Of a stretch of 36,282 bases of DNA, positions 2,402 to 36,137 are shown one piece after another. A program made the position numbers and the translations under genes. Positions within the stretch are counted from its first letter, which is position 1. Every line of letters starts with the position of its first letter. The DNA lies in assembly GCA_013426785.1 (NCBI GenBank), contig JACDZI010000029.1, positions 1 through 36,282 of the forward strand. Direction: 5' to 3'. Source of the DNA: Rhodocyclaceae bacterium (GTDB lineage Bacteria; Pseudomonadota; Gammaproteobacteria; Burkholderiales; Rhodocyclaceae). Under the pieces are notes generated by a model. It ran no database searches. It worked only from the letters and a program-made list of their open reading frames with translations, and was not told where the DNA came from.

Positions 2402-3805
2402 ATGAACACACTCTCACAGCTTCCCTCCGTTGATCGCCTGCTTTCCTCACCGGCGATTGTTGCGCTGATCGAACTGCATGGTCGCGCTATGGTCACCCGT
2501 CTGGTGCGTGAAATACTCGACAACACGCGCGAAGCGGTCAAGGTGGGCGCTGCGCTGCCCGATGATGCGATGCTGATTGAAAAAGTCGGCGCTGGCGGGA
2601 CGGCACTGGCGACACCCGGCCTGCGTCCGGTGTTCAACCTCACCGGCACCGTCCTGCACACCAATCTCGGTCGCGCCCAACTGCCCGAAGAAGCCATCGC
2701 AGCGCTGGTAACGGCCGCGCGCAGCCCTTGCGCCCTCGAATACCACCTGGCCACCGGCGGGCGCGGCGACCGCGACGACATCGTCAATGACCTGCTGCGC
2801 GAACTGACCGGCGCCGAAGCCGCCACGGTCGTCAACAACAATGCCGCCGCAGTCTTCCTGCTGCTCAACACGTTGGCACAGAAGAAGGAAGTCATCGTCT
2901 CGCGCGGCGAATTGATCGAGATTGGCGGCGCCTTCCGCGTGCCGGACATCATGAAGCGCGCCGGGGTGAAACTCGTCGAAGTCGGCACCACCAACCGCAC
3001 CCACCTTAAGGATTTTGCCGAAGCCATCACCCCGCGCACCGCCATGCTGATGAAGGTGCATGCCAGCAATTACGCCATCGAGGGCTTCACCCATGCCGTA
3101 CTGGAGGCCGAACTGGCCGCGCTGGCCCACGAGCACAATCTGTCTTTTGTCGTCGATCTCGGCTCCGGCACGCTCACCGATCTGGCCCGCTGGGGCCTGC
3201 CGCACGAACCCACGCCGCAGGAAACCCTTGGTGTCGGGGCCGCCGGAGCTGACCTTGTCACCTTTTCCGGCGACAAGCTGCTCGGCGGCCCACAGGCCGG
3301 CCTGATAGTCGGTCGCAAGGACCTGATCGCCAGGATCAAGAAGAACCCGCTCAAGCGTGCCCTGCGTGTCGGCAAGCTCACCATGGCCGCCCTCGAAGCC
3401 GTGCTGCGCCTCTATCGCGACCCCGACCGCCTGGCCGAACGCCTGACAGCACTTCAACAACTCACCCGGCCCGAAGACGACATCCACGCTGCCGCCGTCC
3501 GGCTGGCGCCGACTTTTCAGGCTGCACTCGCCAAACTGCCCGTGACGGTCGAGATTGTCGCCCTTAAATCGCAGATCGGCTCCGGCTCGCTGCCGGTCGA
3601 CCGACTGCCCTCGGCCGGCTTTGCCATCCGCCCGCAAGGCAGGAAGAGCGGTGTGCTCAACCGCATCGAGGCGGCACTGCGCGCCCTGCCCTGGCCGGTC
3701 ATCGGCCGCATCGAGGATGGCGCGCTGCTGCTCGACCTGCGCTGCCTGGCTGTCGGTGAGGAAGAGGAATTCCGTGCTGCGCTGGTAGCCTTTATAACAA
3801 GCTGA
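2402..3805 (+). CDS. selA: L-seryl-tRNA(Sec) selenium transferase
   Basis: SelA, a PLP enzyme that converts seryl-tRNA(Sec) to selenocysteyl-tRNA(Sec) using selenophosphate, acting in the cytoplasm as a large homo-oligomer. At 467 residues it has the usual length (E. coli about 463). Visible features are the N-terminal helical domain (DRLL near residue 11), [13 protein letters not shown], the EVGTTNRTH stretch and [12 protein letters not shown] with the PLP lysine at residue 292. Residues 61-68 read KVGAGGTA and are encoded by one exact copy of the dispersed repeat, in the linker before the catalytic domain. selA is the first gene of the sel locus, 44 nt after the chemoreceptor gene, so it may have its own promoter. 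Confidence 0.97.
2581..2605 (+). repeat. dispersed 25-nt repeat, copy 1 (in selA)
   Basis: Exact match (25/25) to the window consensus (A4 + core GTCGGCGCTGGCGGGACGGC + A). It is read in frame as KVGAGGTA, residues 61-68 of SelA, between the N-terminal helical domain and the catalytic domain. Confidence 0.9.
3493..3517 (-). repeat. possible degenerate repeat copy in selA
   Basis: About 21 of 25 bases match the repeat in the opposite orientation; selA reads it as AVRLAPTF. It could simply be native SelA sequence, since the resemblance is weaker than for the other copies. Confidence 0.35.
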
Positions 3806-3817
3806 GGAGCAACGACC

Positions 3818-4273
3818 ATGGCTGACAAGTCACACTGGGAAAAGGTTTACTCGACGCGCGCCATCGACGACGTGAGCTGGTACCAGACACATGCCGAGCG
3901 TTCACTGAAGCTGATCCGCGAACTAGGCATCGCCAAGGATGCCCCGATAATCGATGTCGGCGGCGGCGCCTCGGTGCTGGTCGGCGATCTGCTCGACAAC
4001 GGTTACAGCAACCTGGCCGTCCTCGACCTCTCAGCGGCAGCCCTGTGCGCAGCGCGCGCACGCCTCGGCGGCCATGTGATCGTTGCCACCTTCGCCGAGG
4101 ATGGCCCCACCGAATGCAGCGGCCTGCCGGTCATGCGCTACGACGCGGCACACCTGCACGGCGAGTTCGGCGCGCCCTTCGAACTACTCGGCCATGAGCG
4201 CGAAACCCACCTGACACCAGCCGGCCGCACGCAATCCTTCCTTTACTGCTTCTGCCGCCGCCAGCCGCACTGA
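3818..4273 (+). CDS. class I SAM methyltransferase, internally deleted
   Basis: A 151-residue protein whose first part is the N-terminus of a small class I methyltransferase (HWEKVY, VSWYQ, SAM-binding loop IIDVGGGAS at residues 44-52, acidic strand end LAVLDLS). After residue 84 it jumps directly to GHVIVATFAEDGPT, which in full-length relatives follows the motif-V helix and a KPGG strand. About 50-60 residues of the Rossmann fold are therefore missing, with GGC GGC at the join near 4068. The reading frame is intact. It lies 12 nt after selA and 7 nt before selB, so it is probably co-transcribed. It is unlikely to be an active methyltransferase. The family call is firm; the deletion size is an estimate from memory of relatives. 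Confidence 0.75.
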   Translation: MADKSHWEKVYSTRAIDDVSWYQTHAERSLKLIRELGIAKDAPIIDVGGGASVLVGDLLDNGYSNLAVLDLSAAALCAARARLGGHVIVATFAEDGPTECSGLPVMRYDAAHLHGEFGAPFELLGHERETHLTPAGRTQSFLYCFCRRQPH

Positions 4274-4280
4274 ACGCCTA

Positions 4281-6209
4281 ATGATCGTCGGTACCGCAGG
4301 TCACATCGACCACGGCAAGACCACGCTGGTGAAGGCGCTCACCGGCGTGGATGCCGATCGCCTGCCCGAGGAAAAGGCGCGCGGCATCACGCTCGACCTC
4401 GGCTATGCCTACAGCCAACTGCCTGACGGGTCGGTGCTCGGCTTTGTCGACGTGCCCGGCCATGAAAGGCTGGTGCATACCATGCTGGCCGGCGCCACCG
4501 GCATCGACTTCGTGCTGCTGATCATCGCCGCCGACGACGGGCCGATGCCGCAGACGCGCGAGCATCTGGAACTGCTCGATCTGCTCGGCCTGTCGCTGGG
4601 CGCGGTGGCGCTGACCAAGATCGACGCGGTAACGCCGGAGCGGCTGGCCAGCGCGGAAAAGGAAATCGCCATGCTGCTGGCCGGCACCGCGCTTGCCGAC
4701 AGCCCGGTATTCCCCCTGTCGGGACGAAGCAGCGATGGCGTGCCGGCGCTGCGCGCTCACCTCGAAGCGACGGCTGCGACGTTGCGGGCGCGCTCCACCG
4801 CCGGGCGCTTCCGGCTCGCCATCGACCGCTGCTTCAGCCTGTCCGGCGTCGGCACGGTCGTCACCGGCACCGCCCATGCCGGAAAAGTCGGCGCTGGCGA
4901 GACGGCAATCATCTCCCCGCCGGGGCTGAAAGCCCGCGTGCGCAGCCTGCACGTCCAGGATCGCCCTGCGCAGAGCGGCCAGGCCGGAGACCGCATTGCC
5001 ATGGCCTTGGCCGGCGACTTCGAAAAACAGGACATCGCCCGCGGCATGTGGCTGGTCGATCCGGCCCTGGCCATGCCGTTGACGCGCTTTCACGGCGAAC
5101 TGCGCGTACCGGCCCGGCAGAAACCCCTCACCCACCTGCAACCGGTGCATGTGCACATGGGTACCGAAGACATCGTCGGGCGTGTCGCCCTGCTCGACTG
5201 CACGGAAGTCGGCGCTGGCGGGACGGCACTGGTAGAAGTATTGCTCGAACGCGAGACGCTGGCGCTACGCGGCGACCACTTTATCCTGCGCGACGCGAGC
5301 GCCCAGCGCACCGTGGCCGGCGGCCGCGTACTCGACATTTTTCCGCCGGTGCGCCACAAGCGTAGCGCCGAACGCTTGGCCCTGCTCGCCACCATGCGCG
5401 ACGACGAACCGGCCGTCACGCTGAAACTGCTCATCGCGCAATCGCCGGCGGGTGTCGATCTGATCCGCTTCGCCGCAGCCTGGAACCTCACTGACCATGC
5501 GGCCGAAGCACTGTGGGCCCGCGTGAGCCTGCGCGTGGTCCGTGCCGGCGCTGCCATGATCGGCTTCGCCGCCCCCAGCTGGACCGCGCTCGAACAGCAA
5601 CTGCTCGATGCCCTGGCCCGCGAACACGAGCGGACCACGGACATGATCGGGGTCGAACGCGAACGACTGCGCCGCATGACCGCCGCCAACCTGCCGCGCG
5701 CAGCCTTCGATGCCTTGAGCGACGAACTGCGCGCGGCCGGGCGCATCGCGCAGACACGGGCCTGGCTGCATCTGCCGGAGCATCGCGCCAGCGTTTCCGG
5801 CGCTGACCGCGATCTGTTCGCGGTACTGAAACCCTTGCTGGATGCGGCCCCCTTCAACCCGCCCCGGGTGCGCGATGTCTTCAAGGCCAGTGGCACACCG
5901 GAGGATGTCGTGCGCCAGTTGTTCAAGCGGCTGTCGCGCGCCGGCGAGTTGTATCCGGTCGCCCATGACCACTACTTCACGGCTGCTGCTGTGGCCGAAC
6001 TGGCTGCAATCGTCTGTCAGTTAAACGCGGAACACGGGGCTACCCAGGCAGGCATCCTGCGCGATGCAATCTATGGCGCCGGGGGCGGCGGACGCAAGGT
6101 GGCGATCCAGATTCTCGAATTCTTCGACCGCATCGGCTACACTCGCCGCGTGCGCGACGACCACTTGCTGCGCAGTGAAGGGGCCACACACGACTGGTCA
6201 GCACCATGA
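4281..6209 (+). CDS. selB: selenocysteine-specific elongation factor SelB
   Basis: SelB is the GTPase that delivers Sec-tRNA(Sec) to the ribosome at UGA codons marked by a SECIS hairpin. At 642 residues it is slightly longer than E. coli SelB (614). G1 is [12 protein letters not shown] (residues 4-15), G3 is DVPGHE, and G4 is ALTKID. EF-Tu-like domains 2 and 3 follow, then C-terminal winged-helix repeats that read the SECIS element. Two repeat copies lie inside: residues GKVGAGETA in domain 2 and EVGAGGTA in a loop of domain 3 before [16 protein letters not shown]. The gene starts 7 nt after the methyltransferase stop and ends 5 nt before the tRNA-Sec gene. Confidence 0.97.
4883..4907 (+). 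repeat. dispersed 25-nt repeat, copy 2 (in selB)
   Basis: 24/25 identity. It is translated as KVGAGETA in EF-Tu-like domain 2. Here the motif falls where the family normally has a G-x-V-x-x-G turn, so length is preserved and it may be partly native sequence. Confidence 0.75.
5204..5228 (+). repeat. dispersed 25-nt repeat, copy 3 (in selB)
   Basis: 23/25 identity (the A-run is GGAA). It is translated as EVGAGGTA in a domain-3 loop, where E. coli SelB appears shorter. Confidence 0.85.
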
Positions 6210-6214
6210 ACAAC

Positions 6215-6310
6215 GGAAGCGAACGTTCCCCGGTGGGACGCCCGGTCTTCAAAACCAGGAGGGGCCGCCATGCGGTCCCGGGTGGGTTCGACTCCCTCTC
6301 GCTTCCGCCA
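6215..6310 (+). tRNA. selC: tRNA-Sec (anticodon TCA)
   Basis: A selenocysteine tRNA of 96 nt including an encoded CCA (6308-6310). The 8-bp acceptor stem is GGAAGCGA with TCGCTTCC, the discriminator base is G, the long variable arm runs through GGGGCCGCC...GCGGTCCC, and the T arm contains GGTTCGACTCC. The anticodon loop CTTCAAA (6247-6253) holds TCA at 6249-6251. In the anticodon stem, C6243 faces A6257, an apparent C-A mismatch; other pairs are standard. It begins 5 nt after the selB stop, so it is probably processed from the sel transcript. Confidence 0.97.
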
Positions 6311-6327
6311 ATGAACCACCTATTACC

Positions 6328-6510: not shown

Positions 6511-6543
6511 TGGACTGCCAGCCTGTTGACCTGGAGTTTGAGC

Positions 6544-8437: not shown

Positions 8438-8498
8438 ATCCCGCATAAGCTTTGCAGTTTTAATTGGTTCGTTCAGGGACGGCCAATCGATACATTCC

Positions 8499-8526: not shown

Positions 8527-8533
8527 AAATCCC

Positions 8534-9555
8534 ATGAAAAAGCATTTCGACTGGCGCAAGCTGGCCCTGACCGGCATTGGCGCGCTCACCTTCGTCGCCG
8601 GCGCCCACGCCGCCGACATCAGCCTGCTCAACGTCTCCTACGACCCGACGCGCGAGTTGTACCAAGACTTCAACGCCGCCTTCGCCAAGCACTGGAAGGC
8701 CAAGACCGGCGATAACGTCACCATCAAGCAGTCCCACGGCGGCGCTGGCAAACAGGCCCGGGCGGTGATCGACGGCCTCGAAGCCGACGTCGTAACGCAG
8801 GCCCTTGCCTACGACATCGATGCCATCGCCGAAAAGGCCAAGCTGTTCGGGCCGGACTGGCAGAAACGCCTGCCGCACAACAGTTCGCCCTACACCTCGA
8901 CCATCGTCTTCCTGGTTCGCAAGGGCAACCCGAAGGCCATCAAGGACTGGAACGATCTGGTCAAGCCCGGTATTGGCGTCATCACGCCGAACCCGAAAAC
9001 CTCCGGCGGCGCGCGCTGGAACTATCTGGCAGCCTGGGCCTATGCGCTGAAGCAGCCGGGCGGCAATGACGCGACCGCCAGGACTTCGTCGGCAAGATCT
9101 TCGCCAACGTGCCGGTACTCGATTCCGGCGCCCGCGGCTCCACCACCACCTTCGTCGAGCGTGGCATCGGCGACGTGCTGTTGGCCTGGGAAAACGAAGC
9201 CTATCTGGCGGTCAAGGAACTCGGCCCCGACAAGGTCGAGATCGTGGTGCCCTCGCTGTCGATCCTGGCCGAACCGCCGGTGACAGTGGTGGACAAGTTC
9301 GCCGACAAGCACGGCACCCGCAAGGTGGCCGAGGCCTACCTGGACTACCTGTATTCGGAGGAAGGACAGGATATCGCCGGCAAGAACTACTACCGGCCGA
9401 TCGACAGGAAGGTTGCGGCGAAGTACGCCAAGACCTTCGCGGACGTCAAGCTGATCACCATCGACGAAGTCTTCGGTGGCTGGCAGAAGGCCCAGAAGAC
9501 CCACTTCGAGGATGGCGGCAGCTTCGACCAGATCTACAAGCCGGCGGGACGCTGA
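8534..9555 (+). pseudogene. sbp: sulfate-binding protein, frameshifted
   Basis: A periplasmic sulfate/thiosulfate-binding protein of the CysP/Sbp family, the capture component of the CysTWA ABC importer. A signal peptide (residues 1-26, cut after AHA) precedes [22 protein letters not shown] and [13 protein letters not shown]. The first frame runs correctly to about 9079 and the rest ([42 protein letters not shown], end at 9555) is in another frame, so one base is missing in 9071-9081. With that base restored the protein would be full length (about 340 residues). No cysTWA genes are next to it. It may be a real lesion or a sequencing error. Confidence 0.88.
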
Positions 9556-9573
9556 TCTTCGTCATCAGTGACC

Positions 9574-9601
9574 GCCCTCCTTCACCGGAGGGCCGTTTTT
9601 T
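9574..9601 (+). terminator. rho-independent terminator after sbp
   Basis: GCCCTCC (9574-9580) pairs with GGAGGGC (9587-9593) over a 6-nt loop and is followed by six T at 9596-9601. It lies 19 nt past the sbp stop. Confidence 0.88.
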
Positions 9602-9609
9602 GGTAGCCC

Positions 9610-9635
9610 CGCCGTCTTACCAGTGCCGAGTTTTC
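9610..9635 (-). repeat. degenerate repeat copy after the sbp terminator
   Basis: About 20 of 26 positions match the repeat, including GCCGTC, CCAG, GCCGA and TTTTC. It may be an old, decayed copy; it lies at the left end of the gapdh relic. Confidence 0.4.
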
Positions 9636-9637
9636 TG

Positions 9638-9833
9638 GGGTAGAGGAACCGCACGCCCCGATCGTTTTCAACCACAGCACCTATTCGGCGATCATCGAAA
9701 CCACGCAAACGCGCCTCAGCGGCGAGTGTCTGACCAACTTGCTGATCTGGTTCGACAACGAGAGGGGATTCGCCAGCCGGATGCTCGAACTGGCGAACTA
9801 CTGGGGAGCAACGCTCAAACGCAGCCGGTAGGC
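9638..9833 (+). pseudogene. C-terminal relic of a GAPDH gene
   Basis: A frame ending at TAG 9833 reads FNHSTYSAIIETTQTRL and then LLIWFDNERGFASRMLELAN. This matches the C-terminal part of glyceraldehyde-3-phosphate dehydrogenase, where the usual form is WYDNEWG(Y/F)(S/A)NRM. The catalytic-cysteine and NAD-binding regions are absent, and no start or ribosome site precedes it. I therefore call it a 3' fragment left by a deletion. Its end overlaps the 3' end of dsrC on the other strand. The left boundary is uncertain. Confidence 0.6.
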
Positions 9834-10147
9834 TTGGGCAGGCCGGCGATCTTGCAGGCCTGCACGGCGGGGCCGTTGGGGAAGAGTTCGTAGAGATAGA
9901 TCGAATTGCCCTTGTCCGGGCCGAGTTTTTTGCCGATGGCCTTGATCAGCACCCGAATGGCCGGCGCTATCTGGAATTCGGCGTAGTAATCACGCAGAAA
10001 CTCAATGACTTCCCAGTGCTGAGAAGTCATTTTCAGGCCATCCCGGTTGGCGACCAGATCCGCAAGATCTTCATTCCAGTCTTGATAATTGGCCAGGTAG
10101 CCCGCCTCGTCGGTTTCATAAACTTTTCCAGCAAATTCGATCGCCAC
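9815..10147 (-). CDS. dsrC: DsrC/TusE-family sulfur carrier protein
   Basis: A 110-residue cytoplasmic sulfur carrier of the DsrC/TusE/RspA family. The C-terminal arm FPNGPAVQACKIAGLPKPTG-CV has both conserved cysteines, Cys98 and the penultimate Cys109, separated by ten residues. TusE proteins that serve only tRNA thiolation usually keep just the last one, so this looks like a true DsrC able to form the intramolecular disulfide/trisulfide. The GTG start at 10147 is supported by GGAGGA about 5 nt upstream. No dsrAB is seen. The neighbours are sbp and cysK, and the DsrE-like gene lies 1.4 kb away. Its partner reductase is not in the window. Confidence 0.87.
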   Translation of the reverse strand: MAIEFAGKVYETDEAGYLANYQDWNEDLADLVANRDGLKMTSQHWEVIEFLRDYYAEFQIAPAIRVLIKAIGKKLGPDKGNSIYLYELFPNGPAVQACKIAGLPKPTGCV

Positions 10148-10345
10148 TCAATCCTCCGGCCATGACGGCAAGGGCAGGCGGACAGCGCCAACCCCTTGCA
10201 CGGATAGTATTTTCTATTCGTTAATTATATTCAGTAATGGCAATCGCAGAACAGGAGAACCGGCAGAACGGTTGCCGTCCTGCCAGCGCCGACTTTTCAA
10301 GACGATGACACCCTCTGTCGTTGAAAGTACAGCTTCGGAAGGAAC
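10148..10345. other. intergenic region between dsrC and cysK
   Basis: It holds the dsrC ribosome site, a TATAAT on the minus strand (10224-10229) that could be a -10 box for dsrC although no good -35 is seen, and one repeat copy at 10273-10297. No gene is seen. Confidence 0.5.
10273..10297 (-). repeat. dispersed 25-nt repeat, copy 4 (intergenic)
   Basis: 24/25 identity; the one change gives the GGCAGGAC variant also seen at 22594 and 33113. It is located between dsrC and the 3' end of cysK. Confidence 0.9.
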
Positions 10346-11321
<976 letters not shown>

Positions 11322-11444
11322 GTTGTTCCTTTCAGGTGGAAGGGGTGACAGGCAACGCCCGTAGCAATACGCCAAGAATATTACGTAGGAAATCGAACTG
11401 GGCGGGCGTTTCGATGCGCTTGAACACCGGCCACACGCCCTAGC

Positions 11445-11652: not shown

Positions 11653-12230
11653 ACGACCGCTGTCCCTGGTGCGGCGACGACCCGCTCTATGTCGCTTACC
11701 ACGACAGCGAATGGGGCGTGCCCTGCCACGACGAGCGCACCCTGTTCGAATTCCTCATCCTCGAAGGGGCGCAGGCCGGTCTGTCGTGGATCACCATCCT
11801 GCGCAAACGGGAAAACTACCGCCACGCCTTCGATGGATTCGATTCAAATAAGATCGCCCGCTATGGGGAACAGAATGTCACACGTCTGCTCGGCGATGCC
11901 GGCATCGTACGCAACCGGCTGAAGATCGCCGCTGCCATCGACAACGCCAAGGCAATGCTTGCACTCCATGAAAGCGGCGGCACCCTTGATGCGCTGTTCT
12001 GGCAATTTGTCGATGGCCGACCGGTCATCAACCACTGGCAAAGCATGGCGGAAGTTCCGGCGTTCACGCCGGCCGCCATCGCCTTGTCAAAAGAACTCAA
12101 ACAACGCGGCTTCCGTTTCGTCGGCCCGACCATCATTTATTCGCTGATGCAGGCGATCGGGATGGTCAATGACCATCTCGTCACCTGCCCCCGGCACGCG
12201 GCACTTATTTCCCCAGGCAATCCGCGCTGA
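11649..12230 (+). CDS. tag: DNA-3-methyladenine glycosylase I
   Basis: Tag, the base-excision glycosylase that removes 3-methyladenine from DNA. At 193 residues it is of usual length. The N-terminal Cys5 and His18 (AYHDSEWGVP) and the C-terminal NDHLVTCP segment supply the zinc-binding residues, and LEGAQAGLSWITIL contains the substrate-pocket glutamate. The ATG at 11649 overlaps the stop of the cysB remnant (ATGA). In relatives tag may therefore have been coupled to cysB. The 3' end overlaps the convergent restriction gene by 26 nt. Confidence 0.95.
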   Translation: MNDRCPWCGDDPLYVAYHDSEWGVPCHDERTLFEFLILEGAQAGLSWITILRKRENYRHAFDGFDSNKIARYGEQNVTRLLGDAGIVRNRLKIAAAIDNAKAMLALHESGGTLDALFWQFVDGRPVINHWQSMAEVPAFTPAAIALSKELKQRGFRFVGPTIIYSLMQAIGMVNDHLVTCPRHAALISPGNPR

Positions 12231-15051
12231 GCAGCCGCGCGGGTTCGGGACAGGTTGCAGGAATCCCCGGTGCCGTCCCGCCAGCGCCGACTTTTGCCAC
12301 GGCGCAGTTCAAATCAAGCAGTTGTTGCAGCAGATCGGCCTTGGCCGAGAAGCCATAGGCGGCCAGCACCGCCTTGTCCAACGCGGCATGGGCGTCGCGC
12401 AGCGGGTTCTTGCCTGGCAGGTCAAGCGTGCGGTAGAGCGCGCGCAGGCCGCCGGTCAGGGTTTGCAAGGCTTCGGCACGGATGCGGCGAATCTCGCGGC
12501 CGGCGGCGGCGATGGCGTCGATTTGCTTTTCGCTCGGCGCTTGCGGCCAGGGGAAGGTGTTGAAGACGGATTCGGGGGTGTAGCGGAAGTCGCTTTTCAG
12601 CTTTGAGCACTTGGCGACGAACCATTGCCAATGGGCGGACGATTGCAGGATGCCAAAGCTGTAGTCGTCAGCAAAGGTGAAAACCGATAGTGCATCGCCG
12701 GGCCGGATGGACGAAGCAACAAAAGCGAAGATCGGGCGCTTGGTAACGCGCGAACAGACGAGGTAACGCGGCAGGTCGCCAATCTTGCCGATCAGTTCGG
12801 GGCGCGGCCGAAAGTGTTGCCACCATGTTTGCAGCCAGTTCTGGTCTTGTCCCGTGGGCTTACCACTCTTTATCTGCTCGGCGTTCGCCAGTGCTTGAAC
12901 ATGCGGCAACACTTCGCGCTGCACCCACGCGAACGGTTCGGCGAAGGCGGTGGCTTCAAGAATGGTGCGCGTCTGGAAATCAATGACAAAGCTCTCGGGG
13001 CGGCCGGTGGTCAGCAGTTCGTCGCCAACAAAGAAGGGGCGTACCACTTCGGTGTTCGCAGCATTGGCCAGTAGCCCTCTCGCCTGCTCGGGTGTGAGCA
13101 TGAAACCTTTGTGGCGCGGGTATTGACCGGTGTAGCAGTAGCCATCGTTGCAAGGCAGTACGACCGCTCCGCTTACATCCACCCCATCGGCCAGCGCCGA
13201 ATTGATCTTCGCCGTTGCGCGGCAATCAAGGTCAAAATCCTTGGCGCCGCGCTGGGCCACCTTGAACCACAGCCGGCGCTTTTCGGGCAGCAGCGCCGCT
13301 TCCTGCGTCCTCACCCAGTTGGCGATGGACACATGCACATTCGCCTCGCCGCTCCACGGCTGGTTTTCCACCGCCTCGACCACCGTGCCGTCGGCGCAGA
13401 TGGCGTCGAGCCCGCCAATGCGCGAGGCGTTGTTGCGGATGTTCTGGGTGCCGACGAGACCGGCACGGCCTGTCACCGGGTCATCGACGGTGCAGACCGG
13501 CAAATGGTCGTGGGCGCGGCGGAACCAATACACGCAGTAATCGGCCATGCCCGGCACTTCAGGATAGAGCTTGCGCACGGCATTGACGTAGTCCGCGCCG
13601 CGCTCGGGCTTGAGCCGCTTGGCGCCGAGGAAAGGCGGATTGCCGATGATCACATCCGCCTTGGGCCACGGCGTGCGCGTGCCATCGGGGGCAATCAGCG
13701 CATCACCGATGCTGAAATTGGCGTCGAGGTTATCCAGCGGCAAAGCATTTTCGGTGAAGTGCAGTTCGTCGATGGCCAGCATGTGCGCCAGCATCATCGT
13801 CACCTTGGCCAGTTCGACGGCGAAGGGCTGGATGTCCATGCCGTAAAAGTTGCGCGCGGTGACGAAGCCGAAGGGCCGTTGCGCGGCGTTGCGGCTGGCG
13901 AATTCGCCGATGCGCTCGTAGATGCGCGCTTCGAGCCGCTTGAGTTCGCGGTAGGCGATGTACAGAAAGTTGCCGCTGCCGCAGGCGGGATCGAGCACGC
14001 GGAAGTTTTCCAGCCGGGCGAGCAGTTCTTCCAGCCGCTTCAGTGTTTTCGCGCCTTCGATCTGCTCGCGCCACGGCTCGACGATGCTTGGGCCGACGAT
14101 CTTCATGATGTCGACCGGGCTGGTGAAGTGGGCGCCGTAGGCGTGGCGCTGGGCCTTGCCGAGCGAATGTTCAAAGATGGCGCCGAAAATTTCCGGGCGC
14201 ACCTTGCGCCAATCTGAGCAGGCCGCATTGCGCAGCAGTTTGAGCTCGTCGGCGGTGAGCTCGATTCGCGCCGGTTCGCGGAAGAGGCCACCATTGAAGT
14301 AATCGACGCCTTTGAAGCGCCCCCCCGGCGTTTTGCCCTGTGTGTTCATCTCGACGAAGAGGCCGCCGATCAGGTCGTAGGCTTGCGCGCCGGTCTGGCA
14401 GTCATCCAGCAGACGGGTAAAAAAGTATTGTTCGAGCAGGCCGATGTCCTCGGCGAACAGGCACATCAAGCTTTGCAGGGTGAAACGCTGAGCCAGGCCA
14501 CGCTCGATGCCGCGTGCAACGAGGCTATTGAACATGGCGGCAAGCAGGTCGGCAGCGGCACGCGTGATTTGTTCATGGCTATTGCCAAAAGTCGGCGCCG
14601 ACGGGACGGCGGATAAGAAAGCGAGCGGCCCCCAGCGGCTAGGCAGATCGACAAGCCTGAGGGTATCGACCGGCGTATCCATCTGCGTCTCGAAGTCGTA
14701 AATCCAGAATTCGTCGAAATTGCACAACACGACATAGCGCGGCCGACCGGGGACGAGGCGCGTCCAGTAGTCGAATGCCTGACGGTAGTGTTTCGACAAA
14801 TCCACGCCACGCTTCTTCATCTCGATCAGCACGACGGGCTTCCAGACCAGATCGGCGAAGGCCGTGCCACCGCCGTCCTTTTTCACGCGCGCCTCGCAGG
14901 TCGCGCCGGCCTCCTTGAAGCCGGCATGGCCGAAGGCGCGAAACAGGTGATCGAGGAAAATCGCCGCTTCGCCCTTTTCGTCGCCCTGAATGTGGGTGGC
15001 GCACCAGGCGACAAAGGGGGCGAGGTCAGGAGACACAGTAAAGCAACCCAA
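12205..15051 (-). CDS. MmeI-like single-chain restriction-modification enzyme
   Basis: A 948-residue enzyme of the MmeI (Type IIL) kind combining nuclease, adenine methyltransferase and target recognition. The N-terminal nuclease motif is FADLVWKPVVLIEMKKRG (D...ExK). A helical spacer follows, then the methyltransferase with motif I DPACGSGNFLYIAYRELKRLE and motif IV IIGNPPFLGAKR, and a C-terminal recognition domain. MmeI itself is 919 residues. The start is uncertain: TTG 15051 gives the longest form and GTG 15036 is an alternative; both overlap the end of the PIN toxin gene. Two repeat copies lie inside. The C-terminal one encodes KVGAGGTA followed by a short tail. Recognition sequence unknown. 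Confidence 0.88.
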   Translation of the reverse strand: MGCFTVSPDLAPFVAWCATHIQGDEKGEAAIFLDHLFRAFGHAGFKEAGATCEARVKKDGGGTAFADLVWKPVVLIEMKKRGVDLSKHYRQAFDYWTRLVPGRPRYVVLCNFDEFWIYDFETQMDTPVDTLRLVDLPSRWGPLAFLSAVPSAPTFGNSHEQITRAAADLLAAMFNSLVARGIERGLAQRFTLQSLMCLFAEDIGLLEQYFFTRLLDDCQTGAQAYDLIGGLFVEMNTQGKTPGGRFKGVDYFNGGLFREPARIELTADELKLLRNAACSDWRKVRPEIFGAIFEHSLGKAQRHAYGAHFTSPVDIMKIVGPSIVEPWREQIEGAKTLKRLEELLARLENFRVLDPACGSGNFLYIAYRELKRLEARIYERIGEFASRNAAQRPFGFVTARNFYGMDIQPFAVELAKVTMMLAHMLAIDELHFTENALPLDNLDANFSIGDALIAPDGTRTPWPKADVIIGNPPFLGAKRLKPERGADYVNAVRKLYPEVPGMADYCVYWFRRAHDHLPVCTVDDPVTGRAGLVGTQNIRNNASRIGGLDAICADGTVVEAVENQPWSGEANVHVSIANWVRTQEAALLPEKRRLWFKVAQRGAKDFDLDCRATAKINSALADGVDVSGAVVLPCNDGYCYTGQYPRHKGFMLTPEQARGLLANAANTEVVRPFFVGDELLTTGRPESFVIDFQTRTILEATAFAEPFAWVQREVLPHVQALANAEQIKSGKPTGQDQNWLQTWWQHFRPRPELIGKIGDLPRYLVCSRVTKRPIFAFVASSIRPGDALSVFTFADDYSFGILQSSAHWQWFVAKCSKLKSDFRYTPESVFNTFPWPQAPSEKQIDAIAAAGREIRRIRAEALQTLTGGLRALYRTLDLPGKNPLRDAHAALDKAVLAAYGFSAKADLLQQLLDLNCAVAKVGAGGTAPGIPATCPEPARLLSADCLGK
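12271..12295 (-). repeat. dispersed 25-nt repeat, copy 5 (restriction gene 3' end)
   Basis: 25/25 identity. It is read as KVGAGGTA about 26 residues before the C-terminus of the restriction-modification enzyme. Confidence 0.92.
14587..14611 (+). repeat. dispersed 25-nt repeat, copy 6 (restriction gene, antisense)
   Basis: 22/25 identity, opposite in orientation to the gene. The enzyme reads it as AVPSAPTF after the PLAFLS segment, showing that the element can also be translated from its other strand. Confidence 0.75.
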
Positions 15052-15743: not shown

Positions 15744-18347
<2,604 letters not shown>

Positions 18348-22260: not shown

Positions 22261-23472
22261 CTATAGCAAGTCTGCGAAGGAGAGATAGCGCACCGGCTCC
22301 CCGGCATGGAAGGTGCGCTGCGCTTCGACATCGACCAGTCCGTCGGCCCAGGCACAGGAGGTCAGCACGCCGGAACTCTGGTTCGGATACAACTCGACAC
22401 GGCCGTCCGGCGCGATGCGCGCGCGCAGGAAGCTGCGGCGACTCTCGGGCTTGCTCCAGTCCGAGGCGACAATCAGGCGGCGCGCCACCGGCAGCGTCGT
22501 CTTTACGCCCATGCGCTTGAGCACGTAGGGCCGCAAGAACAGCAGGAAGGTGACGAAGCACGACACCGGATTGCCCGGCAGGCCAACGAAAGCCGCCGTC
22601 CTGCCAGCGCCGACTTTTCCGACCTGACCAAACGCCAGCGGGTTGCCCGGTTTGATGGCGATCTTCCACAGCGACAGCGCACCTTCCGCCTCGACCGCCG
22701 ACTTGACGTGATCCTCCTCGCCGACCGACACGCCGCCGGAGGTGACGATCAAATCATGGGATTCCGCCGCACTTCGCAAAGACCTGCGTGTTTCGGTAAA
22801 ACTGTCCGATACATGGCCCGCATCGGTGACGGCACAGCCGTAGCCCTCGAACAGCGCGCGCAGGAAATGGCGGTTCGAGTTGTAGATGCCACCCGGCGGC
22901 AAGGGCTGGCCCGGCTCGGTCAGTTCGTCGCCGGTCGATAGCAGCGCGACGCGCAAGCGCCGCTTGACCGGCACCGTAGCCCGGCCGATCGATGCCGCCA
23001 GACCGATCTCCGCCGCGCCGAGCCGCGTGCCGGTCGGCAAGACGACCGCATCGGCTGCGATGTCCTCGCCCGCGCGGCGGATGTGCTGACCAAGGTGTGG
23101 CACCTGGTTGACGATGATCCTGCCGTCCTGACCATGCTCACAAAACTCCTGCATCACCACCGCATCCGCCCCTGTCGGCACCGGCGCACCGGTGAAGATG
23201 CGCACCGCCGTGCCCATTGCAAGGGCCTGGCCGACGCTGCCCGCCGGAATGCGCTGCGACACCGGCAGGGCAATACCCGGCTGCGGCACATCGCCACAAC
23301 GTACCGCATAGCCATCCATGGCACTGTTGTCGAGCGGCGGCACCGTCACGGTCGACACCAGCGACTCGGCCAGGATGCGGCCGCGCGCCGCGGACAACGG
23401 GACTGGCTTGCTTGCGGCGACCGGTTCAGCGGCGGCAAGCAGATGGTCGAGCGCTTCTTCGTAGCTCAGCAT
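22261..23472 (-). CDS. moeA: molybdopterin molybdenumtransferase
   Basis: MoeA inserts molybdate into adenylylated molybdopterin. At 403 residues it is near the usual 411. Key stretches are VPPLDNSAMDGYAVR, RIFTGAPVPTGADAVVMQE, STGDELTEPG, the IVTSGGVSVGEEDHVK loop and the GLPGNPVSCFVTF segment. Just before that segment, one repeat copy supplies KVGAGRTA in the turn between the AFGQVG strand and FVGLPGNP, where relatives are shorter. The start overlaps the mobB stop by 7 nt. Confidence 0.97.
   Translation of the reverse strand: MLSYEEALDHLLAAAEPVAASKPVPLSAARGRILAESLVSTVTVPPLDNSAMDGYAVRCGDVPQPGIALPVSQRIPAGSVGQALAMGTAVRIFTGAPVPTGADAVVMQEFCEHGQDGRIIVNQVPHLGQHIRRAGEDIAADAVVLPTGTRLGAAEIGLAASIGRATVPVKRRLRVALLSTGDELTEPGQPLPPGGIYNSNRHFLRALFEGYGCAVTDAGHVSDSFTETRRSLRSAAESHDLIVTSGGVSVGEEDHVKSAVEAEGALSLWKIAIKPGNPLAFGQVGKVGAGRTAAFVGLPGNPVSCFVTFLLFLRPYVLKRMGVKTTLPVARRLIVASDWSKPESRRSFLRARIAPDGRVELYPNQSSGVLTSCAWADGLVDVEAQRTFHAGEPVRYLSFADLL
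22594..22618 (-). repeat. dispersed 25-nt repeat, copy 8 (in moeA)
   Basis: 23/25 identity, carrying the GGCAGGAC variant. It is read as KVGAGRTA in a surface turn immediately before the conserved GLPGNP motif of MoeA. Confidence 0.9.
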
Positions 23473-23963
23473 GGCCTCTCCAGATAGTCGAGGATGAACT
23501 GCACGATGGCGTCGGGATCGTTGAGATCAAGCAGCGGCAGCGGGCAATCGACCGTACCATTGGTCGCCACCGCCACCACGCTGGCGTTGTCCGGCCAGAT
23601 CGGCGGCTTGCCGTACGCCGGACGATGCACCTCCAGCTTCGAAATCGCCGTCTGTTTGAATCCTTCCACCAGCACCAGATCGCAAGGCGACAGGACCGCC
23701 AACTGCTCTTCGAGCGTCGGTTCTTCCTGGCCGCGCAATTCGTGCATCAGCACCCAGCGCGCATCGCAGGTGAGCAGCACCTCGCCCGCACCGGCGGCGC
23801 GATGGCGGAAGGAATCCTTGCCGGGCTGATCGACATCGAAATTGTGGTGGGTATGCTTGATCAACGATACGCGCAGCCCACGCGCGGTGAAACGCGGGAT
23901 CAGTTGTTCGATCAGTGTCGTCTTGCCAGCACCGGAATACCCCGCCAAGCCAAAAACCTTCAT
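23466..23963 (-). CDS. mobB: molybdopterin-guanine dinucleotide biosynthesis adapter MobB
   Basis: MobB is a P-loop GTPase that assists MobA in making the bis-MGD form of molybdenum cofactor. It has 165 residues. Walker A is GYSGAGKTTL (residues 8-17), and SLIKHTHHNFDVDQPGKDSF and LVLVEGFK are family hallmarks. It overlaps the upstream ATP-grasp gene by 4 nt and moeA by 7 nt. bis-MGD is the form used by formate dehydrogenases and nitrate reductases, in keeping with the nearby sel locus. Confidence 0.95.
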   Translation of the reverse strand: MKVFGLAGYSGAGKTTLIEQLIPRFTARGLRVSLIKHTHHNFDVDQPGKDSFRHRAAGAGEVLLTCDARWVLMHELRGQEEPTLEEQLAVLSPCDLVLVEGFKQTAISKLEVHRPAYGKPPIWPDNASVVAVATNGTVDCPLPLLDLNDPDAIVQFILDYLERPC

Positions 23964-25045
23964 GCTTCGATCACTCGCGCAAAGCCGCCGCCGGGCGTGC
24001 GGAAATTGGTCGTCTGCCCCTGATACAAACGGGCCGCGACGAACTGAACTTCACCGCGATAGACGTAGTTGCGAATGTCCGCCTTGAGCGCGGTTAATTC
24101 CCCATTCACTTCAACCGGCAGCGTTGACGGCAGGACGAGCGCCTGGGCCACATAATCGCCGGCGAGAATTTCCTCGAACACGCGTTTGGTCAGCTTGTCG
24201 CCACGGTAGGCCGCGCGCGAACCAAAACCCGCGACGGGTTTGAAAAAAAGTTGGCGGCGGCGCTGCCAGAACTCCTCGGCCCGCTCCGGCGTGACGATTT
24301 CGGTGCGAGGGATACCCGACAACAGAATCTGTCGCGTTGCCACATCCACGCCCCACTCCGCTAGCACGGCATCGTCGGTGAGCGCAACCAGATTGCGCTT
24401 GTCGGCATAGCGGGCATGGAGGGCCGGATTGGGTGTGATCGTCGCCGCGCCTTGCAGCCACGCCTCGTGTAGCACCGCGTCGGTCGGCTGGGCGAGGGCG
24501 AAGTCAGTGAGGCGGTTATAGACGAGGTCAATGCGGGTTTGAGTGTGCTGTGATGAGTGCCACAAGCTGCCATGGCAGAGCAGCAGTTCACCCGGATCGC
24601 AAATCACGGCCTGGATGCCGTGGGTCGCGAAAAGTTGCTGGAAGCCGAGGAATTCCGGATAGAGGTACTGGCTTTCCGGTTGTTCATCGACGATGGCGAC
24701 GGTCTTCAATGGGGCCGTGCACTCGGCACGGAACATCGCCACATAGGCAGCCAGCACGTCATCGCGCCCGGCCTGCATGGCAGTGAGCAATCCGCCGCCG
24801 GCGTTGGTATTGATCTCGATGAGTTGCGGACCGGCTTCCGTCAGGTGGAAGTCGTAGCCCATGAACACTCCGGCCGCATGACCTGCCGTCCCGCCAGCAC
24901 CGATTTTTTTCGCTATCGACTGTTCGACTGCGGCGATCAGTTCGCGCATGCGTGCCAGGACAACCGCCGATAGGGGAGCGCTCGTCGCCGAGAACAGGTG
25001 AGGCCGGTCGGCAAGCAGCAAGGCAGGAAGGTCAGAAAGATTCAT
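23960..25045 (-). CDS. ATP-grasp-like protein, unknown function
   Basis: A 361-residue protein with ATP-grasp character. GYDFHLTEAGPQLIEINTNA resembles the metal-binding strand with E and N ligands, and FFKPVAGFGSRAAYRGDKLT resembles the nucleotide-binding lysine and glycine-rich loop. The order of these blocks (the E-x-N segment before the K loop) is unlike standard ATP-grasp ligases. I do not know its reaction. It overlaps mobB by 4 nt and follows the helicase gene by 9 nt, so it is expressed with molybdenum-cofactor genes. Near the N-terminus a repeat copy encodes KIGAGGTA. Confidence 0.7.
   Translation of the reverse strand: MNLSDLPALLLADRPHLFSATSAPLSAVVLARMRELIAAVEQSIAKKIGAGGTAGHAAGVFMGYDFHLTEAGPQLIEINTNAGGGLLTAMQAGRDDVLAAYVAMFRAECTAPLKTVAIVDEQPESQYLYPEFLGFQQLFATHGIQAVICDPGELLLCHGSLWHSSQHTQTRIDLVYNRLTDFALAQPTDAVLHEAWLQGAATITPNPALHARYADKRNLVALTDDAVLAEWGVDVATRQILLSGIPRTEIVTPERAEEFWQRRRQLFFKPVAGFGSRAAYRGDKLTKRVFEEILAGDYVAQALVLPSTLPVEVNGELTALKADIRNYVYRGEVQFVAARLYQGQTTNFRTPGGGFARVIEA
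24884..24908 (-). repeat. dispersed 25-nt repeat, copy 9 (ATP-grasp gene)
   Basis: 23/25 identity with an extended T-run (A-run in gene sense). It is read as KKIGAGGTA near the N-terminus, before HAAGVFMGYDFHL. Confidence 0.87.
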
Positions 25046-25054: not shown

Positions 25055-27019
25055 TTAACCTGCAAAGAAGGCCTCGACTTCGGCGATCTCGCGGGTGCGC
25101 CGCATCGGCGGCAGGCTCTGCCAGATGCGTCGGCCGTAGGACTTGCCGACTAGGCGCGGGTCGCACACCATTAGCACGCCGCGATCGGTCTCGTCGCGGA
25201 TCAGTCGGCCCGCGCCCTGCTTCATGCTGATCACCGCGCGCGGCAACTGCACCTCGAAGAAGGCATTGCGACCCTCACGCTTGAGCGTATCGATGCGCGC
25301 TGCCAGCACCGGGTCGTCCGGCGGCGCGAAGGGCAACTTGTCGATGACCACCAGCGACAGCGCCTCGCCGCGCACATCCACCCCTTCCCAGAAGCTCTGG
25401 CTCGCCACCAGCACGGCATTGCCCAATTGGCGGAAGCTGTCGAGCAGTTCCGACTTCGAGCGTTGCCCCTGCAGCAGCAGCGGCATCTCCAGCCCGGCGG
25501 CGGCGATGCGCTCTTCCAGCAATTCGTGGATGCGACGCATCGCCCGCAGGGAAGTGCACAGGACGAAAGCCCGTCCGTTCGCGGCCCGGATCGCCGGCCA
25601 GGCCGCGTCGACGACCGCTTCGGCATACTCCGGGTGATTGGGATCGGGCATGTCCGGCGGACAATAGAGAATGGCATTGGCGGGGTAGTCGAAGGGACTG
25701 TCCCAGCGACCGGTCGCGGCCTCGCTCAACCCCAGCGCCTGCTGGTAATGACCGAAGTCGCTGCCCACGGCCAGCGTGGCCGAGGTGAAGATCCAGGCGC
25801 GCGGATGACCTTCGAGCTGCTTGCGGAAGATCGGTGCAACCGACAGCGGCGTCAGGTTGAGCGTAACGGCATAGCTGCCGACCTCCACCCAGCGCACCTG
25901 GGCGGTTTCTTCACCCTTCTCTGCCGTCCCGCCAGCGCCGACTTTTTGCCAGTGCCGCAATTCCAACACCAGTTCGCCGCAACGGCGCAGGCAATTGGCC
26001 AGCCCTTCCGAGCGACCCGCCTGGCTTTCGAGATGCTTGCTCAGTTCATCCAGCATCTTCTGGACATGGTCGAGCGCCTTCACTGCCTCCGCATGCTGTA
26101 GCCACTGGGTCAAGGAAAACCGACCCTCGTGGCGAAAGGCCAGCCGCAGGTCCTTAACCGCCTTTTCCAGCGTCCGCGCCGCTTCCTGCAAGGGCGGGTA
26201 ATCCTTAGCCGCCGCGACCCCCTCCAGTTTGGAGTCACGTGCCAGATCAAGCAATGGGCCGGTGCCGATGGTCAGTCCGAAGAACAGGCCGGCAACATCG
26301 GGCAACTGGTGCGCCTCGTCGAAGATCACCGTGTTGCAGGCCGGCAGCAGTTCGCCCATACCGTCGTCCTTGAGCATCACGTCGGCGAAGAACAGGTGGT
26401 GATTTACGACCACGACGTCCGCCACCAGCGCTTCGCGCCTTGCAGCAAGCACGAAGCACTCCTTGACGTGGGCGCACTCCTGACCAAGGCAGTTCTCGCG
26501 CGTCGAGGTCGCCAATTGCCAGGCACCGGAATCCTCTGGAGCCGCCCCGCACTCGGCCTTGTCCCCGTTCGCGGTGGTCTTGGCAAAGCGGGCGATGGCA
26601 TTGAGGTGCACCACTTCGGCGCGCGAATTGAGCTTGCCGCCGGCCAACGCCCGTTCAAGATGGTGGTGGCAGACATAGTTCGACCGTCCCTTGAGCAGGG
26701 CCACCGTCGCAGGTAGGCCGAGCGCATCGCGCACCGTCGGCAGGTCACGGTTGAAAAGTTGATCTTGCAGGGTCTTGGTGCCGGTCGAGACGATCACCTT
26801 GCCGCCCGCCAGCAGCGCCGGCACCAGATAGGCAAAGGTCTTGCCGGTGCCGGTGCCAGCCTCGGCGACCAGCAGGCGGCTCTCCTTGATCGCCGCCAGC
26901 ACTTGCCGCGCCATGTCGACCTGCTGCTCGCGCAGCCGATAACCGGGGATCGACCGGGCCAGCGGGCCATCGGCGGCAAAGATGCGGTCAATATCGGGTT
27001 TGGTAGGTTTTTGCAGCAT
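25055..27019 (-). CDS. DinG/YoaA-family ATP-dependent helicase
   Basis: A superfamily 2 iron-sulfur DNA helicase of the DinG/YoaA (XPD-like) family, 654 residues from ATG 27019. Walker A is AEAGTGTGKTFAYL. The four-cysteine Fe-S cluster region is present (ECGAAPED, ENCLGQECAHVKEC), with FDEAHQLPD as motif II and, near the end, KQGAGRLIRDETDRG as motif VI. A GTG at 27037 could give a slightly longer form; neither has a strong ribosome site. A repeat copy encodes KVGAGGTA between the two RecA-like domains. It heads the operon that leads into the molybdenum-cofactor genes. Confidence 0.93.
   Translation of the reverse strand: MLQKPTKPDIDRIFAADGPLARSIPGYRLREQQVDMARQVLAAIKESRLLVAEAGTGTGKTFAYLVPALLAGGKVIVSTGTKTLQDQLFNRDLPTVRDALGLPATVALLKGRSNYVCHHHLERALAGGKLNSRAEVVHLNAIARFAKTTANGDKAECGAAPEDSGAWQLATSTRENCLGQECAHVKECFVLAARREALVADVVVVNHHLFFADVMLKDDGMGELLPACNTVIFDEAHQLPDVAGLFFGLTIGTGPLLDLARDSKLEGVAAAKDYPPLQEAARTLEKAVKDLRLAFRHEGRFSLTQWLQHAEAVKALDHVQKMLDELSKHLESQAGRSEGLANCLRRCGELVLELRHWQKVGAGGTAEKGEETAQVRWVEVGSYAVTLNLTPLSVAPIFRKQLEGHPRAWIFTSATLAVGSDFGHYQQALGLSEAATGRWDSPFDYPANAILYCPPDMPDPNHPEYAEAVVDAAWPAIRAANGRAFVLCTSLRAMRRIHELLEERIAAAGLEMPLLLQGQRSKSELLDSFRQLGNAVLVASQSFWEGVDVRGEALSLVVIDKLPFAPPDDPVLAARIDTLKREGRNAFFEVQLPRAVISMKQGAGRLIRDETDRGVLMVCDPRLVGKSYGRRIWQSLPPMRRTREIAEVEAFFAG
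25922..25946 (-). repeat. dispersed 25-nt repeat, copy 10 (helicase gene)
   Basis: 25/25 identity. It is read as KVGAGGTA in a hydrophilic loop ([16 protein letters not shown]) of the DinG-like helicase. Confidence 0.92.
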
Positions 27020-27102
27020 GGGGCGGCAGGTTAACACGCGGAGGCTACGGATATACTCGGAGAAATAACAACAACTCTCGCCACTATCTCGGAGGTCATC
27101 GC

Positions 27103-30496: not shown

Positions 30497-30501
30497 CGGC
30501 T

Positions 30502-30882: not shown

Positions 30883-30883
30883 T

Positions 30884-33081: not shown

Positions 33082-33112
33082 TGCGGCCGGATTCTACCTG
33101 CCAGCCCTTGCA

Positions 33113-33137
33113 AAAAGTCGGCGCTAGCAGGACGGCA
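33113..33137 (+). repeat. dispersed 25-nt repeat, copy 11 (folP-ftsH gap)
   Basis: 23/25 identity with the GGCAGGAC-type variant. It fills much of the 66-nt gap between ftsH and folP, 31 nt upstream of the folP start, so it lies in the transcript leader. Confidence 0.9.
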
Positions 33138-33147
33138 ATACGTCAGA

Positions 33148-35031
<1,884 letters not shown>

Positions 35032-35087
35032 ACGATTGCCTCACTTTCCCATACTTGGGACAACTTGCCACATACGAACGGTCGATT

Positions 35088-35723
35088 CTAAGCCAACCTC
35101 TTTTTCCTAGCCAACAAATATAACTCCGCGCTCCGGTCCCGCGAGGCGGCCGGCTTGCGGGTCGTCAGGGTTTCGAAGGAGACCTGCATGGCCTGACGAA
35201 GTTCCATGAAGCCGGCCCCCTGGAATACCTTGACGAGCAAATCGCCGCCATTCTTGAGGTGCTGCTGCGCAAAATCGAGCGTCAATTCGGCCAGGACCAT
35301 CACCTGAACGCTGTCCGTCGCCGCGATGCCGGTCATATTGGGGGCCATGTCCGACAAAACAAGGTCGACCTGCCGTCCCGCCAGCGCCGACTTTATGCGT
35401 TCGACCACCTCATCCTCGCGAAAGTCGCCCTGGATGAAATCGACGCCGACAATCGGCTCCATCGGCAGCAGATCCAGCGCGATCAGCCGGCCACCGGGCT
35501 GGATGCGTTTCACCGCATACTGGCACCAGCTGCCGGGGGTGGCGCCGAGGTCGACGACCGTCATGCCGGGCTTCAGCAGCTTGTCCTTCTCGTCGATCTC
35601 CTTGAGCTTGAAAACCGCGCGGGCGCGCCAGCCTTCCTTCTGCGCCTGCTGCACGTAAGGATCATTGACGTGCTCCTGCATCCATTGCTTGCTCTTCTTC
35701 TTTTGCTTAGTGGTCCAGCTCAT
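35088..35723 (-). CDS. rlmE: 23S rRNA 2'-O-methyltransferase RlmE
   Basis: RlmE (RrmJ/FtsJ) methylates U2552 of 23S rRNA. It has 211 residues from ATG 35723. RARAVFKLKEIDEK carries the first catalytic lysine, VVDLGATPGSWCQYA binds SAM, and VLSDMAPN, LLVKVFQG and AELYLLARK complete the K-D-K-E set. One repeat copy is read here in a different frame (KSALAGRQ), where relatives have a similar ALxGR stretch, so it replaces rather than lengthens native sequence. Only 18 nt separate its start from that of the divergent yhbY. Confidence 0.97.
   Translation of the reverse strand: MSWTTKQKKKSKQWMQEHVNDPYVQQAQKEGWRARAVFKLKEIDEKDKLLKPGMTVVDLGATPGSWCQYAVKRIQPGGRLIALDLLPMEPIVGVDFIQGDFREDEVVERIKSALAGRQVDLVLSDMAPNMTGIAATDSVQVMVLAELTLDFAQQHLKNGGDLLVKVFQGAGFMELRQAMQVSFETLTTRKPAASRDRSAELYLLARKKRLA
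35371..35395 (-). repeat. dispersed 25-nt repeat, copy 12 (in rlmE)
   Basis: 24/25 identity. It is translated as KSALAGRQ, a different frame from the KVGAGGTA copies, just before the catalytic VDLVLSDMAPN segment. Confidence 0.88.
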
Positions 35724-35741
35724 CTGTTCTAAAATCCGCAA

Positions 35742-36110
35742 ATGATCGAATTATCCCCCATTGAGCGCCGCGCCCTGCGCGCCACCGCGCACCACCTCAA
35801 CCCCACCGTCGCCATTGCCGGCAACGGCCTGACCGCGAACGTCCTCAAGGAAATTGACGTTTCGCTCAACTCCCACGAGCTGATCAAGGTCAAGCTGCAC
35901 GGCATCAAGCGCGACGACCGCGCCGCCCTGCTGGCCGAAATCTGCGCCGCCGTCGAATGTGCGCCAGTGCAGCAGATCGGCAACATCCTCGTGCTGTGGC
36001 GCCCGAAACCCGAAGACGTGGAAGCCGCCAAGCCGCGCTGCCGCAAGGCCACCCCCAAGACCAAGAAGCAGGCCGCCGCCGCGCTGGAAGCCAAGGCGCG
36101 CAGGCAGTAA
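35742..36110 (+). CDS. yhbY: ribosome assembly RNA-binding protein YhbY
   Basis: A CRM-domain RNA-binding protein of 122 residues associated with pre-50S ribosomal subunits. LSPIERRALRATAHHLNPTV, the GNGLTANVLKEID motif and the HELIKVKLHG strand define the CRM domain (residues 1-97); a basic Lys/Ala-rich tail follows (KATPKTKKQAA). It is divergent from rlmE, a widespread pairing, with starts 18 nt apart, so the two promoters must lie inside the opposite genes. A repeat copy lies 2 nt after its stop. Confidence 0.93.
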   Translation: MIELSPIERRALRATAHHLNPTVAIAGNGLTANVLKEIDVSLNSHELIKVKLHGIKRDDRAALLAEICAAVECAPVQQIGNILVLWRPKPEDVEAAKPRCRKATPKTKKQAAAALEAKARRQ

Positions 36111-36112
36111 AC

Positions 36113-36137
36113 CGCAGTCCCGCCAGCGCCGACTTTT
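36113..36137 (-). repeat. dispersed 25-nt repeat, copy 13 (after yhbY)
   Basis: 23/25 identity. It starts 2 nt after the yhbY stop and directly adjoins the recombinase relic, with a long T-run to its right. Confidence 0.9.

Follow-up and report, generated by a model that had tools for sequence, protein, structure and literature searches.

Contig JACDZI010000029.1 of the assembly GCA_013426785.1, labelled Rhodocyclaceae, carries many copies of a 25-nt repeat, and the locus raises the question of what this repeat is. The contig was analysed over its whole length of 36,282 nt (the window). It is contig 17 of a 3.24-Mb assembly of 241 contigs that is 99.8% complete; this assembly is called the source genome here, and G-numbers denote the other genomes compared. 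The initial annotation of the window had offered three explanations, namely a mobile or copy-number-expanding mini-element, a DNA-uptake-like signal and a binding site for a nucleoid protein. The uptake-like signal came out best supported, without depending on the loose resemblance to the Neisseria motif pointed out there, while the mini-element was contradicted at the sites tested. As judged from genome comparison, the repeat is probably (at odds of about two in three) a DNA uptake sequence, a tag for recognizing self DNA in natural transformation, of a clade of Betaproteobacteria. Most named members of this clade bear the label Rhodocyclaceae, and one cultured member belongs to the Sterolibacteriaceae.

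The motif and the origin of its copies

The motif was defined from 105 sites in 433 kb of the source genome, a sample of 20 stretches plus the window that was picked independently of the motif. The consensus was AAAAGTCGGCGCTGGC(G/A)(G/A)GACGGC(A/G), 25 nt with sharp borders, which can be divided into AAAA, GTCGGCGCTGGC, (G/A)(G/A), GACGGC and a final (A/G). The flanks were approximately at background except for a weak A at position -5. The information content was 34.9 bits, a value biased high because the sites had been chosen by their core. The motif is not palindromic, and its folding z-score of 0.29 was in agreement with the little self-complementarity noticed in the initial annotation. 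The copies are dispersed and an array-type repeat was rejected; the initial annotation had likewise excluded a clustered regularly interspaced short palindromic repeat (CRISPR).

In the window, the 13 strong and two weak copies reported earlier were all recovered at their positions, the strong ones with 0-3 mismatches and the weak ones with 4 and 6 (Table 1). The 20-nt core matched 14 times at up to 3 mismatches, whereas 100 shuffled sequences gave 0.04 matches on average. In the whole source genome, the same search gave 377 forward and 364 reverse matches (741 in total) against 1 and 5 (6 in total) for the reversed control, or about 230 copies per Mb; the motif occurs about once per 4.2 kb. 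This count is about 120 times the control, and the possibility raised by the initial annotation, that the repeat is as frequent as expected by chance, was thus excluded. The sample contained 30, 43, 19, 13 and 10 sites with 0, 1, 2, 3 and 4 mismatches, respectively, and the control 7 with 4 mismatches. The most over-represented 10-mer and 12-mer of the sample were the motif itself, and no comparable over-represented k-mer was found in samples of 117-140 kb from the motif-free genomes G005, G021 and G023.

The origin of the copies was analysed at genic sites by comparison with orthologs. Protein alignments (tblastn, E <= 1e-20, at least 40% identity, spanning the site plus 5 residues on each side) numbered 56 and represented 26 of 100 sites in open reading frames (ORFs). 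In 28 of them, representing 13 sites and including 15 rows from four selA/selB sites, the relative lacked the site. These 28 included 21 gapless alignments, four with a gap of 1-2 residues in the relative and three with a gap of 1-3 residues in the protein of the source genome; none had an eight-residue gap, the size of the motif. DNA alignments, for which the best match per locus had to span 20 nt on each side, numbered 54 and covered the eight window sites (of 14) for which an ortholog was available. Within the motif, 44 of the 54 were gapless; of the ten with gaps, about half had a motif a few bases away in the relative. The moeA-like and helicase-like genes had indels of 3-9 bases beside the motif.

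At the two SelB sites, eight relatives formed a graded series from no site through a partial to a full site, and the motif was interrupted by a gap only at the second site, where G005 has one additional codon. A series was also observed in SelA. The RlmE site was gapless in all 29 relatives; its left 15 bases were complete in the source genome, G001, G009 and G011, and a partial motif was present in G002, G003, G004 and G017. Taken together, these alignments show that at the sites tested the motif was built up through substitutions in stretches that tolerate them, accompanied by minor local indels. Non-carrier relatives lacked the motif bases at the codons tested, and the alternative that the same bases are ancestral in all homologs was not borne out.

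These alignments decide against a mini-element that has spread through the genome by mobility or copy-number expansion, a reading that would be favoured by the large number of short, nearly identical copies and their sharp borders. The absence of motif-sized gaps and the intermediates contradict it, and beyond the 25 nt only the weak A was conserved; we regard it as hardly credible, and at the sites tested it was rejected. Rickettsia palindromic elements and other mini-elements of coding regions are short repeats in genes that insert, unlike the present motif, whose copies, where tested, originated through substitutions.

Carriers, dialects and placement

When congeners were searched with the 20-nt core, 17 of 18 species had 373-763 copies and G005 had 2. 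Outside the genus, G019 had 687 copies, and the remaining 21 genomes of this search had 0-13, on par with their controls (0-17). The exact 15-mer was then counted in 249 genomes of the family, giving 28 dense carriers (39-401 copies) in six genera, namely 8 of 9 genomes in g1, 7 of 8 in g2, 1 of 1 in g25, 1 of 1 in g54, 4 of 4 in g62 and 7 of 7 in g80; no more than 10 copies were found in any of the remaining 221. In 386 genomes of other families (of 399 in the order), at most 4 exact 15-mers were found in each. Among the matches listed, GTDB contigs with the exact 25-mer came mainly from metagenome-assembled genomes of Rhodocyclaceae but also from an isolate, Sulfurisoma sediminicola BSN1, a member of the Sterolibacteriaceae according to NCBI. 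In 8 kb of sequence from this cultured candidate carrier, one exact and one further copy were present. Single names among these contigs may in some cases be mislabelled bins.

In a tree of FtsH, the 19 dense carriers tested fell into one clade with support of 99/98. This clade also contained the weak or non-carriers G269, G055, G115 and G056, and G005 was left unplaced since it had no FtsH match at E <= 1e-200. The tree requires three changes of carrier label, and a single gain followed by losses is the simplest reading, though not proven. No alternative-dialect k-mer comparable to the motif was detected in 140, 120 and 60 kb of G056, G115 and G269, respectively. All five exact 15-mers of G115 lay within 41 kb on one strand (L374 and L375, contig 1, 1460-1505 kb), in a segment with genes for copper resistance (CopB) and RND efflux that seems to have been acquired from a carrier. 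The motif may also flag DNA transferred out of the clade, as in this metal-efflux segment of an otherwise nearly motif-free genome.

Copies were also encountered elsewhere. G035, from another family, had three copies of the 20-mer (contig C29 and others), one of them exact and two with a single mismatch; two of these sites lay less than 4 kb apart. They are either transferred DNA or contamination. A viral collection contained 54 stretches (L135-L188, phage or host flank) with the exact 20-mer; 36 further matches occurred in their 493 kb, a density lower than in host DNA.

Dialects were compared in samples of 80-160 kb per genome. The source genome uses AAAAGTCGGCGCTGGCggGACGGC, G042 has many GTCGGTGCT variants and a final G, and copies in G071 end in ACGGCG. 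Both (G/A) positions vary in G019, and in G179 AAAGTCGGCGCTGG is best kept with a weaker right part. Sister genera thus have the left core in common and a lineage-specific right half, a variation that resembles the dialects of the DNA uptake sequence (DUS) of Neisseriaceae (PMC3630211). A second over-represented word around CTAATGGACAATC, unrelated to the motif, occurred in 10-12 copies in 380 kb of G002 (stretches L189-L207).

Sites were assigned to genes or spacers with a simple home-made gene caller based on codon usage. In the sample, 70 of 105 sites lay in genes, 39 sense and 31 antisense, and all six frames were used. The peptide readings were KVGAGGTA (28 sites), RRPASADF-like (16), AVPPAPTF (13) and KSALAGRQ (7), with 4 and 2 sites for the other two. 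Intergenic sites (35 of 105) were enriched compared to the approximately 21% of the DNA that is intergenic (p 0.004). The two inverted pairs observed and the predominance of KVGAGGTA would be in keeping with an element that acts in transcription or as RNA, for instance one half of a terminator, or with a peptide motif that is translated. Use of all six frames on both strands speaks against a peptide role. The pairs were not in excess and folding was ordinary, in line with the initial view that the repeat is no recognisable terminator or palindrome, and Rfam matched only tRNA-Sec in the window and no RNA family for the motif. Such an element is therefore very improbable.

Spacing and orientation were computed for the 100 sites listed out of 114. 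Spacing was more even than random (coefficient of variation 0.70 vs 0.91, P 0.0014), and 4 gaps shorter than 500 nt were observed where 12.4 were expected. Two of the 20 stretches of the source genome were free of sites compared to 0.2 expected. The first was a ribosomal-protein region, in which all 10 proteins scanned were ribosomal proteins, RNA polymerase, SecY or elongation factors. The second was a surface-polysaccharide cluster, where 8 of 10 proteins matched sugar-metabolism, glycosyltransferase or flippase families and 2 had no match. A further stretch contained a single site. Known uptake sequences are scarce in unchanging and in foreign genes. Together, the even spacing, the dialects of sister genera and the lack of sites in the polysaccharide cluster are best fitted by an uptake sequence.

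Competence genes and the weighing of the readings

If the repeat is an uptake sequence, the receptor that binds the 25-nt motif on free DNA at the cell surface would probably be a type IV minor pilin, and pilus retraction and ComEC would import this DNA. Homologous recombination would favour motif-bearing alleles, and point mutations towards the motif would build up in whatever proteins and spacers can accommodate them (molecular drive). Motif binding, the uptake bias and the identity of the receptor are the parts of this scheme that we infer. ComEC was found in 38 of 41 genomes including the source genome, whose comEC (contig C74, domain at 38426-39214) contains three motif copies. The minor-pilin operon of the source genome encodes a pilin of the Pfam family ComP_DUS (L396:9435-9854; 36.8 bits, cut-off 27.3), adjoining a GspH/FimT-type pilin. 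A comparable pilin was present in 19 of 21 genomes (the source genome and 20 others) and was not found in the fetched loci of the dense carrier G071 or of G023. The AlphaFold model of the pilin had a mean predicted local distance difference test (pLDDT) score of 86.1 and matched pilins weakly. In two prepilin-like genes (L398:3321-4055 and L405:6776), the prepilin cleavage motif is immediately preceded by VPPAPTF, a peptide that the repeat encodes in one of its frames.

Several results weigh against an uptake sequence, the clearest being that canonical ComEA above the curated cut-off was absent from the source genome and 18 congeners, some of them incomplete. It was also not found in G019, and matches below the cut-off in the genus lay in ORFs of 620-1723 aa; in the same search G023 alone within the family passed the cut-off. 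Thus either a diverged protein does the work of ComEA or the uptake reading needs revision. As for the pilin, 18 further ones were scanned (11 from carriers and 7 from weak or non-carriers), and the ComP_DUS cut-off was passed by 19 of 19, including 7 of 7 from weak or non-carriers, indicating that the pilin does not track the motif. A fold search with the pilin returned no match at E <= 0.001, and ComP did not appear among the 50 matches listed. Inverted pairs closer than 100 nt numbered 2, with 2.1 expected. The RlmE site was absent in every relative outside g1, including dense carriers of other genera. When conservation was tested in alignments of at least 300 columns with 60 nt on each side, motif positions were barely more conserved than their flanks (p 0.046 for 62 alignments, p 0.88 for 24 sites taken one by one). 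Conservation was not raised per site; the number of sites is maintained while their places change. The 25 nt of the motif also exceed the length of DUS, up to about 13 nt (PMC12616744).

The last point against the uptake reading concerns orientation, for which the initial annotation had suggested a test of strand or replichore bias. This was carried out in the near-complete G002 with a divide at 1.4 Mb judged from the GC skew of 19 stretches. No replichore bias was found over the 100 sites listed out of 114 (26+/36- vs 21+/17-, p 0.22) or among 72 one-mismatch sites (p 1.0). The 28 exact copies were nominally biased (7+/13- vs 7+/1-, p 0.033; p 0.006 with the divide chosen afterwards).

The nominal bias of exact copies would be in keeping with a chromosomal binding site of a sequence-specific nucleoid, recombination or segregation protein that acts inside the cell, with selection keeping a spacing of a few kilobases. 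Even spacing, intergenic enrichment and the lack of ComEA point the same way, and the motif contains GCTGGCGG, a single base away from the Chi octamer of E. coli. However, no orientation bias was seen across the listed sites, the surface-polysaccharide cluster had no sites, and site positions turn over between species. To our knowledge, proteins of this type use motifs that are either short or low in copy number, and one that carries about 35 bits, occurs 741 times and is also written into genes greatly exceeds these. We therefore consider such a site, the nucleoid-protein candidate of the initial annotation included, unlikely, and it explains less than an uptake signal does.

The missing ComEA would also suit a relic, that is, an ancestral uptake sequence whose copies have been decaying since uptake was lost, for example together with ComEA. 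The few copies in the clade members G056, G269 and G115 and the more degenerate motif of G002 compared to the source genome are in line with this. In the sample, however, 73 copies had 0-1 mismatch and 42 had 2-4, unlike the result of long decay, and a relic is accordingly quite improbable.

Neisseriaceae and Pasteurellaceae are the only families known to have such uptake motifs according to PMC12616744 (2025). In N. meningitidis and N. gonorrhoeae, no repeat is more abundant than DUS (PMC3630211). According to the latter paper, DUS share with the present motif hundreds to thousands of copies, genic and intergenic sites and dialects following phylogeny; a minor pilin of the ComP_DUS family is likewise present in the source genome. 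Unlike DUS, the motif has another sequence, a density of about 230 copies per Mb at up to 3 mismatches, few inverted pairs and no canonical ComEA found in its genome. It resembles the uptake signal sequence (USS) of Pasteurellaceae in being a long extended motif with an AT-rich part and dialects, USS reaching up to 32 nt (PMC12616744). It differs from USS in sequence and lineage: USS have a 9-nt core with weaker tracts, whereas here the A-tract adjoins a G+C-rich core and nearly all 25 nt are conserved.

The highly iterated palindrome HIP1 of cyanobacteria is reportedly also a clade-restricted, strongly over-represented word. It is an 8-nt palindrome, GCGATCGC, linked to methyltransferases, in contrast to the present 25-nt, non-palindromic motif. 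The letters of the motif and the peptide KVGAGGTA were in no paper of the literature searched, which covered few subscription papers and no preprints. Strict searches of it for uptake sequences in this group or in new families found no report, and among the titles listed by broader ones none dealt with uptake motifs in this group.

By function, the motif is likely a new uptake-sequence variant. Tentatively, it may represent a third, independently evolved self-recognition system outside Neisseriaceae and Pasteurellaceae, with an exceptionally long and nearly completely conserved 25-nt signal of about 35 bits that would be read by a type IV minor pilin in cells taking up DNA without canonical ComEA. 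If true, this third case would show that DNA self-recognition evolves repeatedly and would suggest natural transformation as a force of gene flow in this group. Carriers, weak carriers and non-carriers would then form a natural set in which the receptor could be found by comparison.

Copies and other features of the window

The positions of all copies are given in Table 1, with mismatches counted against the 25-mer AAAAGTCGGCGCTGGCGGGACGGCA. Gene names were read from ORF translations without a family search.

Table 1. Motif copies and neighbouring features in the 36,282-nt window
Feature	Position	Strand	Mismatches	Context
Motif copy	2581..2605	+	0	inside selA, reads EKVGAGGTA; ortholog series
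Motif copy, weak	3493..3517	-	4	antisense in selA; no site and no gap in 7/7 orthologs
Motif copy	4883..4907	+	1	inside selB
Motif copy	5204..5228	+	2	inside selB
tRNA-Sec	6215-6306			Rfam RF01852
Sulfate-binding-like protein	8534-9893			overlapping ORFs 8534-9283 and 9066-9893
Degenerate copy	9610..9634	-	6	judged by its core only, such matches are as frequent in the reversed control
Motif copy	10273..10297	-	1	apparently intergenic
Cysteine-synthase-like gene	10346-11375	-		seemingly without its first part in the same frame
Motif copy	12271..12295	-	0	inside ORF 12205-15051 (-)
Motif copy	14587..14611	+	3	antisense in ORF 12205-15051 (-)
Motif copy	16749..16773	-	2	inside clpB-like gene, reads KVGSGGTA
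Motif copy	22594..22618	-	2	inside moeA-like gene
Motif copy	24884..24908	-	2	inside ORF 23960-25045 (-)
Motif copy	25922..25946	-	0	inside helicase-like ORF 25055-27037 (-)
Motif copy	33113..33137	+	2	between folP-like gene and ftsH
Motif copy	35371..35395	-	1	inside rlmE, reads IKSALAGRQ; gapless in 29/29 relatives
Motif copy	36113..36137	-	2	close to window end

The sulfate-binding-like gene appears to be split, for which a frameshift or an error in the assembly could account. The gene for tRNA-Sec directly follows selA and selB, and the three form a compact selenocysteine locus.

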